Below, piece by piece: positions 43,877 to 60,682 of a stretch of DNA of 64,000 nt (the first letter of the stretch is position 1; each line of letters begins with the position of its first letter). The translations under genes and the position numbers were made by a program. The notes beneath the pieces are model-generated. The model ran no database searches, was not told where the DNA came from, and saw only the letters and a list, made by a program, of their open reading frames with translations. Source of the DNA: Paenibacillus dokdonensis (lineage in GTDB: Bacteria; Bacillota; Bacilli; Paenibacillales; Paenibacillaceae); the NCBI RefSeq assembly GCF_004916975.1, contig NZ_STGQ01000001.1:3775674-3839673 (forward strand). The letters are read 5' to 3'.

Positions 43877-44947
43877 TTATCTATGTCTTGCCGTCTCCTT
43901 GATTAATTGGAATACAGAGGAAAGGGCTTCAGATTGTTTATTTTTTCTCATATTGCCAATGAAACCTTCACGTTTGTTATATACTTCCATCACGCCAGCA
44001 ACAAGAGAAATCACGGTCATCTCTTCCTCTTCCAAAACCTTGCAGTATCCGGATTTTTCGAAAGAACGAGCATTCAGGATTTGATCGCCCCTGCTCTGCT
44101 GCTTGGTCAGCGGAATGAGAAGCATTGGCTTTTGAAGCGACAAAAACTCAAATATGGAATTGGAACCAGCCCGGGAAATCACCATATCAGACATAGCTAA
44201 AACATCCGGCAGTTCTTCGTTTATGTATTCATACTGCTGGTATCCACTGAGTCTTATACTCGTGTCCAACTGACCTTTTCCGCATAGATGGACAATCTGG
44301 AACCGCTCCAAGAGATCTGTGAGAGCAGTTCTGACGGCTTCATTGATTTTACGGGCTCCGAGGCTTCCACCCATAATCAGAAGAACAGGCTTATTCGCAT
44401 GAAATCCGCAATACTTTCTTCCTTTATCCGCATGACCCTGATGAAGTTCCTTTCGAATAACAGCACCTACATAGCGAGTTTTTGCCTTGCTGATTTGTTC
44501 TGCTGTTTCTGGAAAAGTCGTGCATACGGCAGCCGCGAGCGGAATGGATATACGGTTTGCAAGGCCGGGCGTAATATCTGATTCATGAATGATAACAGGT
44601 ACTTTATTTAACCATGCCCCTATGACGACCGGAACAGATACGAATCCCCCTTTTGAAAATAACACCTGCGGCTTCCGTCTGTTTATCAATCGATAGGCTT
44701 GAAATACTCCTTTGGCGATCTTGAACGGATCCTTCATGTTTTGAAAGTCCAAATACCTGCGCAATTTGCCTGTTGATATTGGAAAATAGTCCACATTGGG
44801 AAGGGAGCTGACAAGCTGTCTCTCAATTCCCTGTGCAGAACCTATATATTCCACAGACCAGCCCTCATCCAGAAAAAGCGGCATCAACGCCATATTAACG
44901 GTAACATGGCCTGCGGAGCCGCCGCCGGTAAACATAACCTTCTTCAT
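43877..44947 (-). CDS. murG: UDP-N-acetylglucosamine--undecaprenyl-PP-MurNAc-pentapeptide GlcNAc transferase (MurG paralogue)
   Basis: GT28 glycosyltransferase that adds GlcNAc to lipid I, making lipid II on the inner membrane face. 356 residues. N-terminal GGGSAGHVTVNMAL, the acceptor-site ESDITPGLANR, the donor domain LIMGGSLGARKINEAV, and the UDP-GlcNAc motif SRAGSNSIFEFLSLQKPMLLIPL. AGGAGG lies 7 bases before the ATG. It stands alone rather than in a mur/dcw cluster, so it may be a second MurG copy. The family also includes related lipid-linked sugar transferases, so lipid I specificity is probable but not certain. Confidence 0.88.
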   Translation of the reverse strand: MKKVMFTGGGSAGHVTVNMALMPLFLDEGWSVEYIGSAQGIERQLVSSLPNVDYFPISTGKLRRYLDFQNMKDPFKIAKGVFQAYRLINRRKPQVLFSKGGFVSVPVVIGAWLNKVPVIIHESDITPGLANRISIPLAAAVCTTFPETAEQISKAKTRYVGAVIRKELHQGHADKGRKYCGFHANKPVLLIMGGSLGARKINEAVRTALTDLLERFQIVHLCGKGQLDTSIRLSGYQQYEYINEELPDVLAMSDMVISRAGSNSIFEFLSLQKPMLLIPLTKQQSRGDQILNARSFEKSGYCKVLEEEEMTVISLVAGVMEVYNKREGFIGNMRKNKQSEALSSVFQLIKETARHR

Positions 44948-44964
44948 AAGTACCTCCTGCTCGT

Positions 44965-44992
44965 TGACTTCTTGTTATTTTATTGTATTATA
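44965..44992 (+). promoter_or_regulatory. Candidate sigma-A promoter of the ABC-F leader transcript
   Basis: TTGACT (44965-44970) and TATTAT (44987-44992) with a 16-base spacer. It would give a leader of about 350 bases before the ABC-F start. Confidence 0.6.
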
Positions 44993-45113
44993 CAGCTGAA
45001 TTTTATATAAGTACCGGTGGCTCCTTCACCCATGCCTGATGACTGCCCCTTGCTATCTGAGGGCAAAACATATAGAATAAACATAACTTTTTTAAACAGG
45101 AGGTGAGGTAGCA

Positions 45114-45263
45114 GTGGCACAACATTTTTCGAACAACCGGATTGATCAGCTTCCGATGACGTTATCCGGCATTTTTTACAGAGCAGCACTCAACGGGATC
45201 CGTCTGTCCAATTTTAAATATCCGGTTGTTCTAAAAAAATGTGAAATGCCGCTCCTACCTTAA
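45114..45263 (+). CDS. 49-residue upstream ORF in the ABC-F leader
   Basis: GTG start at 45114 behind AGGAGGTGA (45098-45106), an exact match to the anti-Shine-Dalgarno with good spacing, so translation is likely. The product, starting MAQHFSNNRIDQLPMTLSG and ending CEMPLLP, has no recognised family. It lies wholly upstream of a strong terminator and overlaps competing hairpins: GAACAACCGGAT (45131-45142) pairs perfectly with ATCCGGTTGTTC (45220-45231), or in part (CCGGAT) with ATCCGG at 45164-45169, which precedes a T run. It may act as a leader whose translation controls attenuation. Confidence 0.6.
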   Translation: MAQHFSNNRIDQLPMTLSGIFYRAALNGIRLSNFKYPVVLKKCEMPLLP

Positions 45264-45293
45264 CTTCAACGGAAAATAAGCGTTGAACGTTCA

Positions 45294-45324
45294 GCCGCAG
45301 GGACATTTCCCTGCGGCTTTTTTT
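45294..45324 (+). terminator. Attenuator-type terminator upstream of the ABC-F gene
   Basis: GCCGCAGGGA and TCCCTGCGGC form a perfect 10-base stem with a 4-base loop and then TTTTTTT. It stands between the leader ORF and the ABC-F start, 32 bases before it, so read-through would be needed to express the gene. A TTCAACG/CGTTGAA hairpin (45265-45287) lies just upstream. Confidence 0.9.
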
Positions 45325-45355
45325 CTGTAGTTCCGGCATCTATGGAGGAAAAACA

Positions 45356-47257
45356 ATGATGATTCAATGTAAAAATGTGCAAAAATACCACGGCGCCCAG
45401 TTGGTGCTGTCAGATATCAGCTTCGAAATTGCAAATGGGGAAAAGGCCGCTCTCATTGGACGCAACGGCTGCGGCAAGACGACCTTATTCCATTTATTAA
45501 AGGGAGAAGATGCCCCCGATCAAGGGAGCATTGCTATCCAAAAGGGAGCGCGTGTCGGTCTCCTCGCGCAGATTCCGGAGGCATCCGCTCAAGAAACGGT
45601 GTATGAAGTGCTTCTCAGGCCTTTTGCAGCCGTACTCGAATGGCAGAGCCGGATGCGCTCGCTGGAAATGCTCATGTCAAATCCTGCCGAGGCCGGTGAT
45701 CCCGCAATCCTCACAAGCTTGCTAGAGGAATACGGCAAGCTGCAGGAATTGTTCGAAAGAGCAGACGGATATGAGATCGAGTCTGCCATCGCCCGTGTGG
45801 CAGGCGGACTGGGCATTCCCTTCCAGCAGTTTTCGCAACCTTTCCCCTCCCTGTCCGGCGGGGAGAAAACAAAAATTGGACTGGCGGCACTGCTGCTTGA
45901 AAAGCCTGATGTCCTATTGCTGGATGAACCGACCAATCACCTGGACATGGCCGCCATTGAATGGCTGGAGCAGTTTCTCGCTGAATATAACGGTACCGTA
46001 TTGGCTATCTCTCATGACCGTTTCTTTCTCGACAGGCTCGTAACCAAAGTAATTGAAATCGAGGATGGAGAAGCCCTCATCTATCATACCAACTACAGCG
46101 GTTATCAAAAGGAAAAGGAAGAACGTCTCCTGCTGCAGATTGCACATTACCAGGAACAGCAGAAAAAGATTAAGCAAATGCAGGAGAGCATCAAACAGCT
46201 GATTCAATGGGGTAACGAGGCCAATCCGCCGAATGCGGGCTTCCACCGCCGGGCAGCATCCATGCAGAAAGCACTGGACCGCATGGTCAAGCTGAAACGG
46301 CCTCTGCTCGAACGCAAGAAAATGGATCTGCAACTGCAGCAGGATGACCGATCCGGCAAGCAGGTGCTTCTCTTTGATCAAGTGGGTAAAGCTTTCGGGG
46401 ACCGTTACCTGTTCCACGATGTCAACGGACTGCTCCGTTACGGGGAAACCGTCATGCTCCTGGGGCCAAACGGCTGCGGCAAAAGCACACTGCTTCAAAT
46501 GATTCTTGGGAAAGAAGAAGTTTCAGAAGGAGCCATTACCCTGGGCTCCCGCGTCCTTATAGGCTATCTAGCTCAGCAGGAGCATCCGGAGAACACGCGG
46601 CAATCTGTGCTTCAATTTTATCGTGAGCATGCAGGGATCGAAGAAGGAGAAGCCCGTGGCAAGCTTGCACGTTTTCTGTTTTATGGAGCCGATGTGTTCA
46701 AAGGTGTCTCCAGCCTCTCCGGAGGCGAATGGACGCGTCTGCGATTTGCCATATTGATGGAACTGAAGCCAAACTTGCTGATTCTCGATGAACCGACCAA
46801 CCACCTGGATATTGACTCCCGGGAGGTGCTCGAGGAAGCACTAGAGGAGTTTCCTGGGACCATCCTTTCGGTATCTCACGACCGCTATTTCATAAACCGG
46901 CTCGCCGATACGATATGGAATCTGGAGCAGGGGAAGCTGCGGATGATCGCGGGTGGATTTGATGAATACCAAACACGTACACGTTATGAAAATGCACAAG
47001 TGATACCAGAAGCGAAGACTGTCCCTTCCGCCCCCGTTTCCGGGAAGCAACGCTTGTCCACACCAAAATCCGCACCGATATACTCGGAAAAGGATATCCT
47101 GGAAGCAGAGCAAAGGCTGCAGGAGCTGGAAACGCAGATGATGGATGAGACCATCGCCTGCGATGCAAAACAACTTGCGGAGCTTCATGAGGAGAGCGAA
47201 CAGCTAAAAGAACAGATTCAGAAACTGTACGAAGCCTGGATGAGTTCCGCGGAATAA
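45356..47257 (+). CDS. ABC-F family ATPase (candidate ribosome protection factor)
   Basis: 633-residue soluble protein with two ABC domains and no membrane part. Domain 1: Walker A GRNGCGKTT at about 36-44, LSGGEKTKIG, Walker B VLLLDEPTNHLD. A linker of about 70 residues (ERLLLQIAHYQEQQKKIKQ ... FHRRAASMQKALDRM) is the region that reaches the ribosomal exit site in ABC-F proteins. Domain 2: GPNGCGKST, SSLSGGEWTRLR, LLILDEPTNHLD. A C-terminal coiled coil follows. TGGAGG lies before the double ATG. Family members either protect ribosomes from antibiotics (Vga, Lsa, VmlR types) or are housekeeping factors (YdiF, EttA types). The attenuated leader favours an inducible resistance role, but length and C-terminal tail also fit the YdiF group. 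Confidence 0.88.
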   Translation: MMIQCKNVQKYHGAQLVLSDISFEIANGEKAALIGRNGCGKTTLFHLLKGEDAPDQGSIAIQKGARVGLLAQIPEASAQETVYEVLLRPFAAVLEWQSRMRSLEMLMSNPAEAGDPAILTSLLEEYGKLQELFERADGYEIESAIARVAGGLGIPFQQFSQPFPSLSGGEKTKIGLAALLLEKPDVLLLDEPTNHLDMAAIEWLEQFLAEYNGTVLAISHDRFFLDRLVTKVIEIEDGEALIYHTNYSGYQKEKEERLLLQIAHYQEQQKKIKQMQESIKQLIQWGNEANPPNAGFHRRAASMQKALDRMVKLKRPLLERKKMDLQLQQDDRSGKQVLLFDQVGKAFGDRYLFHDVNGLLRYGETVMLLGPNGCGKSTLLQMILGKEEVSEGAITLGSRVLIGYLAQQEHPENTRQSVLQFYREHAGIEEGEARGKLARFLFYGADVFKGVSSLSGGEWTRLRFAILMELKPNLLILDEPTNHLDIDSREVLEEALEEFPGTILSVSHDRYFINRLADTIWNLEQGKLRMIAGGFDEYQTRTRYENAQVIPEAKTVPSAPVSGKQRLSTPKSAPIYSEKDILEAEQRLQELETQMMDETIACDAKQLAELHEESEQLKEQIQKLYEAWMSSAE

Positions 47258-53587: not shown

Positions 53588-53635
53588 CGCCTAGTCATCA
53601 TGAAAAAAACATCAATCAGAAACATGTGAAGTCCG

Positions 53636-53725
53636 TCTCCACTTCCCTACGCCGGTATGATCCGGATCAGGTTCAAAGGGTCCAAGCATCCTTGTCTCAG
53701 CCGCTCTTAGCGCGGCTCCCCTAGT
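53636..53725 (-). ncRNA. TPP riboswitch (THI element)
   Basis: Minus-strand reading has the conserved parts of the thi box in order: AGGGGAGCC, GGCTGAGA, ACCCTTTGAACCTGATC, GGATCATACC, GCGTAGGGAA. A terminator hairpin with T run follows before tenA. Ligand-bound RNA is expected to terminate transcription of tenA-thiM-thiD-thiE when TPP is ample. Confidence 0.96.
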
Positions 53726-53807
53726 GGATTTCATATGAAGTTCGATTTCACGTTATACTTTAGCTTCGTTTATACATCTTGTCAAACCCATTCTCCATCA
53801 TGATCCA

Positions 53808-59016: not shown

Positions 59017-59195
59017 TTGTACCTGAGAGTTTAAACGGAAATTCAACGTTTCCGCGTTCCCCTTGGGTGGCTGACGCTCTCTCCAGAGCCGCGTCCGGCG
59101 ACGGTTCCTTGTACCTGAGAGATTAGCTGCCTGTATGTGCGTACCTGCAGCTTGCTCCTTCGGTGCCGCCCTTTCCAGGGCAGTCTCTCCCGTTC
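59008..59195 (-). ncRNA. Tandem glycine riboswitch upstream of sdaAB-sdaAA-gcvH
   Basis: Two glycine aptamers in series on the minus strand. The first (about 59100-59193) begins GGAGAGAC and has GCACCGAAGGAGCAAGC and ATCTCTCAGGTACAAGGA. The second (about 59010-59097) has TCTGGAGAGAGC, GCCACCCAAGGGGAA and ACTCTCAGGTACAAGGGACAG. The repeated CTCTCAGGTACAAGGA signature is diagnostic of the gcvT motif. An expression-platform hairpin follows. Confidence 0.95.
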
Positions 59196-59397
59196 GCTTT
59201 CATCCGCTAATATATGGAAATCCATGATATCCTGGAACCATTTACAATCCTATTCCCCTTTAGAATAAAGCAGAGCGAACAGCGGTGTCAATATAACACA
59301 ACCCCCATTTTGATGTTTCGCCGAAATCCCCTTTTCAAGATATATGTAAATATAATATTAGAAGACTCCGCTTCCTTATCCATCAGGAAATTCCCGC

Positions 59398-60234: not shown

Positions 60235-60451
60235 GCTTGATCCCTCCCGGAATAAATAAATCGTGCTTGGATGACTCTATAAACATTGTACCGTGTCCAT
60301 TTAGAAATCAATACACTAAAATGGATGGAAATCCGTATTTTTACTTATACCTCCTCCTTGCCGCTGATCATGTCTCCCCTTATAATCTTGTTGACATTAC
60401 AGTGGCCTTTGAGTATTAATGATATTAAGACAATTCAATAGCGGATGAAGG

Positions 60452-60682
60452 TAATGGGAGAGATTACTGAACCTTAGTGACGCCGAAGGAGTAAGCCCTT
60501 GCAAGGGTGAATCTCTCAGGCAAAAGGACCATTATTGGACGCATCTCTGGAGAGAATTCTTAAGCGAAAGAATCACCCAAGGGGAAATTTGCTGGCCGGT
60601 GCAGGAATCGTATGAACGCCTTTTGTTATCCCTTTTTTTGCCCGGAATCAGCAAGGTAACTCTCAGGTACCAAGGACAGAGC
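60452..60682 (+). ncRNA. Tandem glycine riboswitch upstream of gcvT
   Basis: Two aptamers in series. The first (about 60455-60530) has GGGAGAGATT, GTGACGCCGAAGGAG and GTGAATCTCTCAGGCAAAAGGACC. The second (about 60540-60680) has CATCTCTGGAGAGAA, AATCACCCAAGGGGAAA and GTAACTCTCAGGTACCAAGGACAGA. The second aptamer has an unusually long side arm closed by TTGCTG/CAGCAA (60588-60593 and 60648-60653). It controls gcvT-gcvPA-gcvPB. Confidence 0.95.

Follow-up and report, generated by a model that had tools for sequence, protein, structure and literature searches.

The window analysed here, 64,000 nucleotides (nt) of Paenibacillus dokdonensis (contig NZ_STGQ01000001.1, positions 3,775,674 to 3,839,673), holds a chromosomal gene for an ABC-F ATPase behind a leader that carries an upstream open reading frame (uORF) and an intrinsic terminator. 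The reading that we favour, at roughly 55% and hence slightly above even odds, is that this leader consists of a uORF of the RAxF-45 type, an 18-nt element (consensus AAYGGGANNNGTNTGYCC) at which RNA polymerase would pause and so time the loading of a ribosome, a helix (P1) masking the Shine-Dalgarno (SD) sequence and start codon of the uORF, and a terminator before the ABC-F gene. The same element is found before other resistance genes, mostly of Bacilli.

Leader ORF, element and helix P1

Judged by sequence, the leader ORF is real and conserved, and its type is probably RAxF-45. An earlier note on this DNA had recognised no match for its product; the ORF in fact reaches 26.7 bits against the NCBIfam family RAxF-45 (NF041642), just below the curated cut-off of 27, and proteins with the NCBI name RAxF-45 are among its homologues. 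Relatives were searched twice, for the ABC-F in 60 and for RAxF-45 in 100 genomes (over the cut-off in 15 of the latter), and both searches lead to the same loci: at all 30 of the best RAxF-45 loci (L031-L060) about 97-329 nt separate the end of the match from an ABC-F start. Altogether, four families of the order contribute 67 distinct leader ORFs, 41-55 codons long, that lie upstream of an ABC-F gene; three with a wrongly called start are not in this count. Of the 67, 59 show an SD match of at least 7 nt to AAGGAGGTGA, and in 66 a terminator stands between the leader stop and the ABC-F gene. A protein search returned 159 relatives, the best 120 of which bear mostly Paenibacillus names, along with Cohnella and Gorillibacterium, and a scan of genome contigs found the same kind of ABC-F with the element in Gottfriedia, Lysinibacillus, Gracilibacillus, Oceanobacillus, Sporosarcina and Brevibacillus. 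A search of other genomes for the ORF, one of the checks suggested by the earlier note, thus places homologues upstream of ABC-F orthologues in many of them.

The element lies 78 nt from the start codon in 58 of 64 leaders (75 nt in five and 81 nt in one), and in the window it is read as N-G-I-R-L-S. Among 19 representatives of less than 80% identity, conservation reaches 95-100% at 12 of the 14 specified bases, synonymous third positions not excepted, and is weaker only at the initial A (68%) and the final C (79%), while the encoded residues vary (N/D/Y, R/I/T, S/G/R and L/V/M/A). Bases are kept where residues change, and we therefore consider selection to act mainly on the nucleic acid. At 27 of the 29 usable ABC-F loci (L028 was dropped, as it lies at a contig edge) the motif is present with at most two mismatches, and with four at the other two; 580 shuffles reached two or fewer once.

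In helix P1 the 3' part of the ORF pairs with the region that holds its SD sequence and start codon, over 22-38 base pairs (bp) and at -26.6 to -43.2 kcal/mol. The tests of P1, like those for an antiterminator given below, omit L032-L034 of the 67 leaders, for which an internal start had been chosen. The helix is better than dinucleotide shuffles (p<=0.05) in 63 of 64 leaders, and when strands were exchanged across groups, 56 of 64 leaders paired better with their own partner than with any foreign one; only this swap test was used, because pair-level 'compensatory' counts are biased by pairs that are defined from each leader's own duplex. At least four bases of the SD zone are paired in all 64 leaders and start-codon bases in 63, and the anti-SD strand begins 20-48 nt 3' of the element in every one. 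The 12-bp pairing of GAACAACCGGAT (45131-45142) with ATCCGGTTGTTC (45220-45231), to which the earlier note had drawn attention, is real but is not the complete structure: it forms the upper end of P1 in the window. The 3' strand of P1 also encodes the conserved C-terminus of the peptide, CEMPLLP in the window and CEMPxLP across leaders; as these codons pair with the SD region, their conservation needs no peptide function. With homologous ORFs before ABC-F orthologues, a terminator in 66 of 67 leaders and pairing that beats shuffles in 63 of 64, the layout is more than a chance arrangement.

The features of the locus are collected in Table 1. The coordinates given earlier hold to within one base: the promoter is present in the sequence and starts one base before the position first reported (44965), the 49-codon ORF with its strong SD sequence lies where it had been placed and starts with GTG, and the ABC-F gene is confirmed with an ATG start. 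Two details needed correction. The terminator, given as a 10-base stem from 45294, is present but has 11 bp from 45293 (AGCCGCAGGGA-CATT-TCCCTGCGGCT, 45293-45318, with the T tract reaching 45324); the hexamer ATCCGG is indeed found at 45164-45169, but it is followed by CATTTTTT, which intervenes before the ATTTTTT described as adjoining it. Since a MurG-like gene occupies the opposite strand, the leader has its own intergenic promoter.

Table 1. Features of the ABC-F locus in the window, with the basis of each assignment.
Feature	Position	Strand	Basis
MurG-like glycosyltransferase	43877..44947	-	NF009102, 522 bits (cut-off 339); transcribed away from the leader
Sigma-A type promoter TTGACT-N16-TATTAT	44964..44991	+	Consensus match only; -35 TTGACT 44964-44969, 16-nt spacer, -10 TATTAT 44986-44991
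SD sequence AGGAGGTGA of the leader ORF	45098..45106	+	Sequence; strong, consensus SD
5' strand of helix P1 (SD, start codon, first codons)	45098..45142	+	Minimum free energy fold, shuffle and swap tests
Leader ORF, 49 codons, GTG start, RAxF-45 type	45114..45263	+	NF041642 score and homologues
18-nt element AACGGGATCCGTCTGTCC, putative RNA polymerase pause element	45192..45209	+	Conservation; presence in other resistance leaders
3' strand of helix P1, reaching past the stop codon, with the anti-SD	45220..45268	+	Folds, shuffle and swap tests
Intrinsic terminator, 11-bp stem, 4-nt loop, T tract	45293..45324	+	Sequence
SD sequence GGAGGA of the ABC-F gene	45344..45349	+	Sequence
ABC-F ATPase, 633 amino acids, ribosomal protection-like	45356..47257	+	NF000355, 470.2 bits (cut-off 380)

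On its model score, the chromosomal ABC-F is classed as ribosomal protection-like: the broad NCBIfam model NF000355 is the sole one over its cut-off among the best 25 of 195 families, in which the models for Vga, Msr, Lsa, Sal, OptrA and CplR all remain below theirs. Relatives in the PDB are EttA, VmlR (ExpZ) and PoxtA. A Pfam search with five leader peptides gave no match; the protein database nonetheless lists PF28050 for the peptide of the window. Nothing in the window leader or at seven other loci exceeds an Rfam gathering score, the E-value mode giving weak matches far below it, and RNAalifold found no consensus structure over all 67 leaders together, the alignment being too diverse. Elsewhere in the window, TPP and glycine riboswitch aptamers score over the Rfam gathering thresholds at 53627-53732 (-), 60445-60681 (+) and 59093-59202 (-).

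The same element before other resistance genes

Genome contigs scanned with AAYGGGATNNGTNTGTCCNWTTT yielded at least 118 stretches, all 118 of which were classified; by record names and general taxonomy, we take 109 of them to be from Bacilli. A gene of our resistance panel follows on the same strand within 2.6 kb in 101 of the 118 (68/80 and 33/38), a figure to be read with the panel having been drawn partly from these same loci. The genes are of the window's ABC-F type (37), Msr (26), Mef (10), Erm (10), VmlR-like (5, one of which, L126, is weakly assigned with 55 bits), FexA (4), GNAT/pentapeptide (3), RlmA-like (3), Mph (2) and VmlR2-like (1). Against NCBIfam models, FexA (1056.6 bits, cut-off 900), Erm (260.6, 212), Msr (766.2, 680) and the Cfr family (601.9, 530) score over their cut-offs and the Mef, Mph and RlmA-like proteins below them; the VmlR-type protein exceeds that of the broad NF000355 only, for the GNAT protein no model reaches E<=1e-40, and the own genome's second ABC-F (L217) stands outside this naming of panel genes. 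Seven of the 17 stretches lacking a panel match have less than 320 nt of downstream sequence, and ten are true misses (L097, L099, L112, L125, L134, L135, L153, L188, L189 and L206). In clostridial, Oscillospiraceae and Finegoldia records (L125, L134, L135, L150 and L189) the pattern occurs as TCCCATTT with no resistance gene downstream, L150 being too short; these matches are probably unrelated coding sequence. Sites in Paenibacillus, Lentibacillus, Siminovitchia and Sporomusa (L112, L153, L206 and L188) have no downstream panel gene either.

For the genus to which B. glycinifermentans belongs, 31 genomes gave 23 sites with a pattern made slightly wider and none with the reversed pattern, and all 23 precede VmlR-like (13), Erm (8), Mef (1) or MFS (1) genes. 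The own genome has eight sites with at most one mismatch versus two for the reversed pattern. One is the window's, and three lie in leaders that belong to a Cfr-family gene, an MFS pump and the second ABC-F; of the remaining four, three lack a panel gene and the fourth (L218) has no more than a 25% match to an ABC ATPase. Over the phylum as a whole, the frequency of the bare motif is close to chance: 398 genomes gave 24 exact sites versus 21 reversed ones, with 8 of the 24 before a panel gene. Within that sample, the motif is present in six of the seven genomes of the window's family, with no control matches; in eight genomes picked for holding the motif, a panel gene follows 10 of 11 sites. 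On plasmids the element precedes cfr, cfr(B) and fexA, and only degenerate matches with three to four mismatches are found for cfr(D), fexB and a Staphylococcus ABC-F.

Several individual loci merit description. In the own genome, L216 (C1:2317901) encodes a Cfr-family 23S rRNA methyltransferase with a leader uORF, its element being the same, base for base, as in cfr and cfr(B) on plasmids. The MFS transporter of about 389 amino acids at L215 (C1:1515471), which is also found with the element at L298, has a FexA-like leader and falls below the cut-off of every named resistance model. At L217 (C1:3904216, minus strand), the second ABC-F has the uORF MEILSTVLRRELA, with a stop codon that directly abuts the element. 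Paenibacillus loci L119, L120, L172 and L221 combine the element with a GNAT plus pentapeptide-like protein (domain names read from sequence), and all three leaders long enough to test have P1 and a uORF MPDFS; this protein is a candidate for an unrecognised resistance gene. A record named Arthrobacter (L199) holds the window's ABC-F type (43.6%) with the element, through transfer or contamination, and a Staphylococcus epidermidis plasmid (L299) carries an ABC-F 43.6% identical to that of the window, with a 48-residue leader ORF and the degenerate element AATTGGTGAAGTCTGTCT.

Of 61 loci taken for a comparison of frame and pairing, all but L171 and L269 could be parsed; L133, L148 and other Erm-type scan loci were left out. 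The element is translated in frame 0 in RAxF and Cfr leaders and in frame 2 in those of FexA and the MFS pump. It is untranslated in Erm-type leaders (uORF MTHxMRLRFPTLNQ), where it lies 36-42 nt past the uORF stop, in VmlR-type leaders (uORF MIN), 39-44 nt past the stop, and in those of the GNAT genes and the second ABC-F, in the last directly 3' of the stop codon. From the uORF start to the element it is 42-85 nt, and the bases around that start can pair with the element, with what follows immediately 3', or with both. Such pairing (p<=0.05) is present in 18 of 25 Erm-type, 12 of 16 VmlR MIN, two of seven VmlR2-like, three of three FexA and three of three GNAT leaders, in the single Cfr, MFS, second ABC-F and MDN leaders, and not in the single MKF leader. 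The element stands before other resistance genes together with a helix masking the uORF in most leaders tested, which would place the leader of the window in a wider class with a common timing signal.

Proposed mechanism and competing explanations

We propose that RNA polymerase would copy the SD sequence and start codon of the leader ORF and then pause at the element, at a time when the anti-SD strand is still absent; the pause would give a ribosome time to load on the leader, loading being possible only in that interval. Under normal translation the polymerase would leave, P1 would close and transcription would end at the terminator; were a ribosome held on the leader, by a drug or another translation fault, P1 would be blocked and the polymerase would read on into the ABC-F gene. 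Lincosamides, streptogramins and pleuromutilins as the inducing drugs are a guess. In its general form, the proposal is that AAYGGGANNNGTNTGYCC acts as a nucleic-acid signal, most likely a polymerase pause, that stands about 40-85 nt past the leader ORF's start codon and times ribosome loading before at least ten gene types of Bacilli (the window's ABC-F, VmlR-type ABC-F, Msr, Erm, Mef, Mph, RlmA-like methyltransferase, FexA, Cfr, MFS pump and GNAT/pentapeptide protein), a claim that we place a little short of an even chance.

That the element is a polymerase pause is our best guess, which we infer from the leaders compared. The published elemental pause consensus (G-10, Y-1, G+1; PMC12288461) fits one register in 65 of 67 RAxF leaders, which alone would be weak evidence. 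A number of observations weigh against the proposal. The consensus to which the pause register was fitted is loose. In RAxF leaders the element is followed by the T-rich NusG motif TTNTTT in only 6 of 67 cases, the window having AATTTTAAAT. The element is broken, with four mismatches, in L006 and L009, and the 67 leaders were located by the motif itself (at most four mismatches), which makes their conservation partly a matter of ascertainment and leaves the 29-locus count alone unbiased. Pairing of the leader with the 5' arm of the terminator reaches p<=0.05 in one of 63 RAxF leaders (median p 0.72), and with a longer arm again in one of 63; the last step, from a held ribosome to readthrough past the terminator, has no support. 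The earlier note had described the layout of antibiotic-sensing attenuation: its arrangement of a uORF with SD sequence, terminator and ABC-F gene proved to be conserved, but a switch of RNA fold involving the terminator was not recovered.

A site bound by a protein or RNA factor, of antitermination or repressor type, would look alike here and is the alternative that survives best, although we regard it as unlikely. Conservation of 18 nt goes beyond what the elemental pause consensus requires, and the element is independent of both reading frame and pairing partner, as a binding site would be; against this, there is no candidate factor, and the corresponding stretch in vmlR coincides with reported NusG-independent pauses (PMC9226507).

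Somewhat less probable still is a three-way switch of the VmlR kind, in which P1 would be an anti-antiterminator and a ribosome opening P1 would free a strand to pair with the 5' arm of the terminator. The strength of P1 (63/64) agrees with it, as does the element itself pairing with the terminator arm in VmlR-type leaders, where the same antiterminator test, used as a control, was positive in 15 of 18; in some group B leaders CTTTCCTGCC faces the arm GCGGGGAAA, though not beyond shuffles (best p 0.13). RAxF leaders, by either arm, gave the single positive noted above, and their truncated folds show no consistent partner for the arm. With this pairing found in 15 of 18 VmlR-type leaders but hardly ever in RAxF ones, the mechanism of the RAxF leader would differ in some respect from that of vmlR, or else depend on direct contact with the ribosome. 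Antiterminator pairing (p<=0.05) was likewise found in none of three FexA leaders nor in the single Cfr, MFS and second ABC-F leaders, and the terminator search succeeded in one of eight VmlR2-like and none of three GNAT leaders; for Erm-type leaders the figure of 5/25 is uninformative, distal terminators having been chosen for many loci.

An arrest peptide, with N-G-[I/R]-[R/S]-[L/M]-S and the C-terminal CEMPxLP stalling the ribosome via the exit tunnel, appears improbable. The leader ORF is conserved, and upstream of the motif A-G-I-[V/F] is kept with freer third positions, so some selection on the peptide is possible; within the motif, however, bases are kept and residues vary, the element stands in another frame (FexA, MFS) or is untranslated (Erm-type, VmlR-type, second ABC-F, GNAT), and the CEMPxLP codons are the 3' strand of P1, complementary to the SD region. 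NGRSLS as a conserved arrest motif was rejected as the main cause on the grounds of nucleotide conservation and frame differences. A NusG-dependent pause at TTNTTT, with the element as pause hairpin, is more doubtful again: TTNTTT follows in 28 of 41 other leaders (selected by hand), but its rarity in RAxF leaders speaks against it, and so does the poor conservation of the GGGA/UCC stem of 3-4 bp, in which position 16 changes from T to C with position 7 unchanged. Finally, RAxF-45 as a free small protein with a role of its own and the ABC-F a mere neighbour is very improbable, for although NCBI annotates RAxF-45 as a protein family, its fixed position before the ABC-F, the constraints of motif and P1 and a C-terminus that follows from SD pairing all argue otherwise.

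Should the pause reading be correct, one leader design would be fitted with differing drug-sensing peptides. In the passages available, the literature treats the cfr, fexA, erm, msr and vmlR leaders as separate cases sharing the idea of a stalling uORF; the common 18-nt element suggests a single mechanism behind the inducibility of these resistance genes. The element would also give the orphan family RAxF-45 a role and serve as a sequence handle for finding resistance genes that have gone unrecognised, the GNAT/pentapeptide and MFS genes being candidates.

Comparison with known leaders

The RAxF-45 family (NF041642), of which the leader ORF of the window is a sub-threshold member, is named only as a protein family, its name being absent from the literature searched; the shared element likewise goes unnamed in that literature, which did not cover supplements and subscription papers. 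The cfr and cfr(B) leaders on plasmids of Staphylococcaceae and Enterococcus have the element as AAAGGGAGTAGTCTGTCC and the fexA leaders there as AACGGGATCAGTATGTCC; both have a long uORF as in the window but encode other peptides, that of fexA with the element in frame 2. By contrast, cfr(D) and fexB have only four-mismatch matches. Leaders of the ErmD/ErmK type (PMC4335068) share the element, 81-85 nt after the start codon and with the SD sequence paired just 3' of it, and differ in the macrolide arrest motif RLR, a uORF of mostly 13-14 codons and an untranslated element. For tlrB (yxjB) of B. subtilis, a polymerase pause is reported to allow leader translation to start before the SD sequence is sequestered (PMC6851288); this resembles the pause timing proposed for the window, but the pause is NusG-dependent and the uORF has nine codons.

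The closest comparison is with uORF-controlled ABC-F attenuators of the VmlR/CplR/MsrD type, with which the leader shares a downstream ABC-F, a conserved uORF with SD sequence, a terminator and a masking helix, whereas the antiterminator pairing of these systems was looked for and not found. The B. subtilis vmlR leader (Takada 2022, PMC9226507) has a helix-masked uORF (SL-1), a terminator, an ABC-F gene and NusG-independent pauses reported opposite the uORF and close to the base of SL-1; in the VmlR-type Bacillus leaders analysed here, among which B. subtilis 168 does not appear by name, the 3' strand of the helix matching SL-1 is the element variant AATAGGATTAGTCTGCCC. The two differ in that the uORF of vmlR has three codons (MIN) rather than 49 and that its antiterminator is published, whereas none is detectable in the leader studied here. 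CplR, VmlR2 and LsaA (PMC10201436) also have a uORF before the ABC-F gene, cplR together with a terminator, but these uORFs have 3-4 codons and the text passages do not mention the element. Stalling uORFs before ABC-F genes are thus already known from the cited passages (PMC9226507, PMC10201436), and the RAxF leader is a long variant of them.

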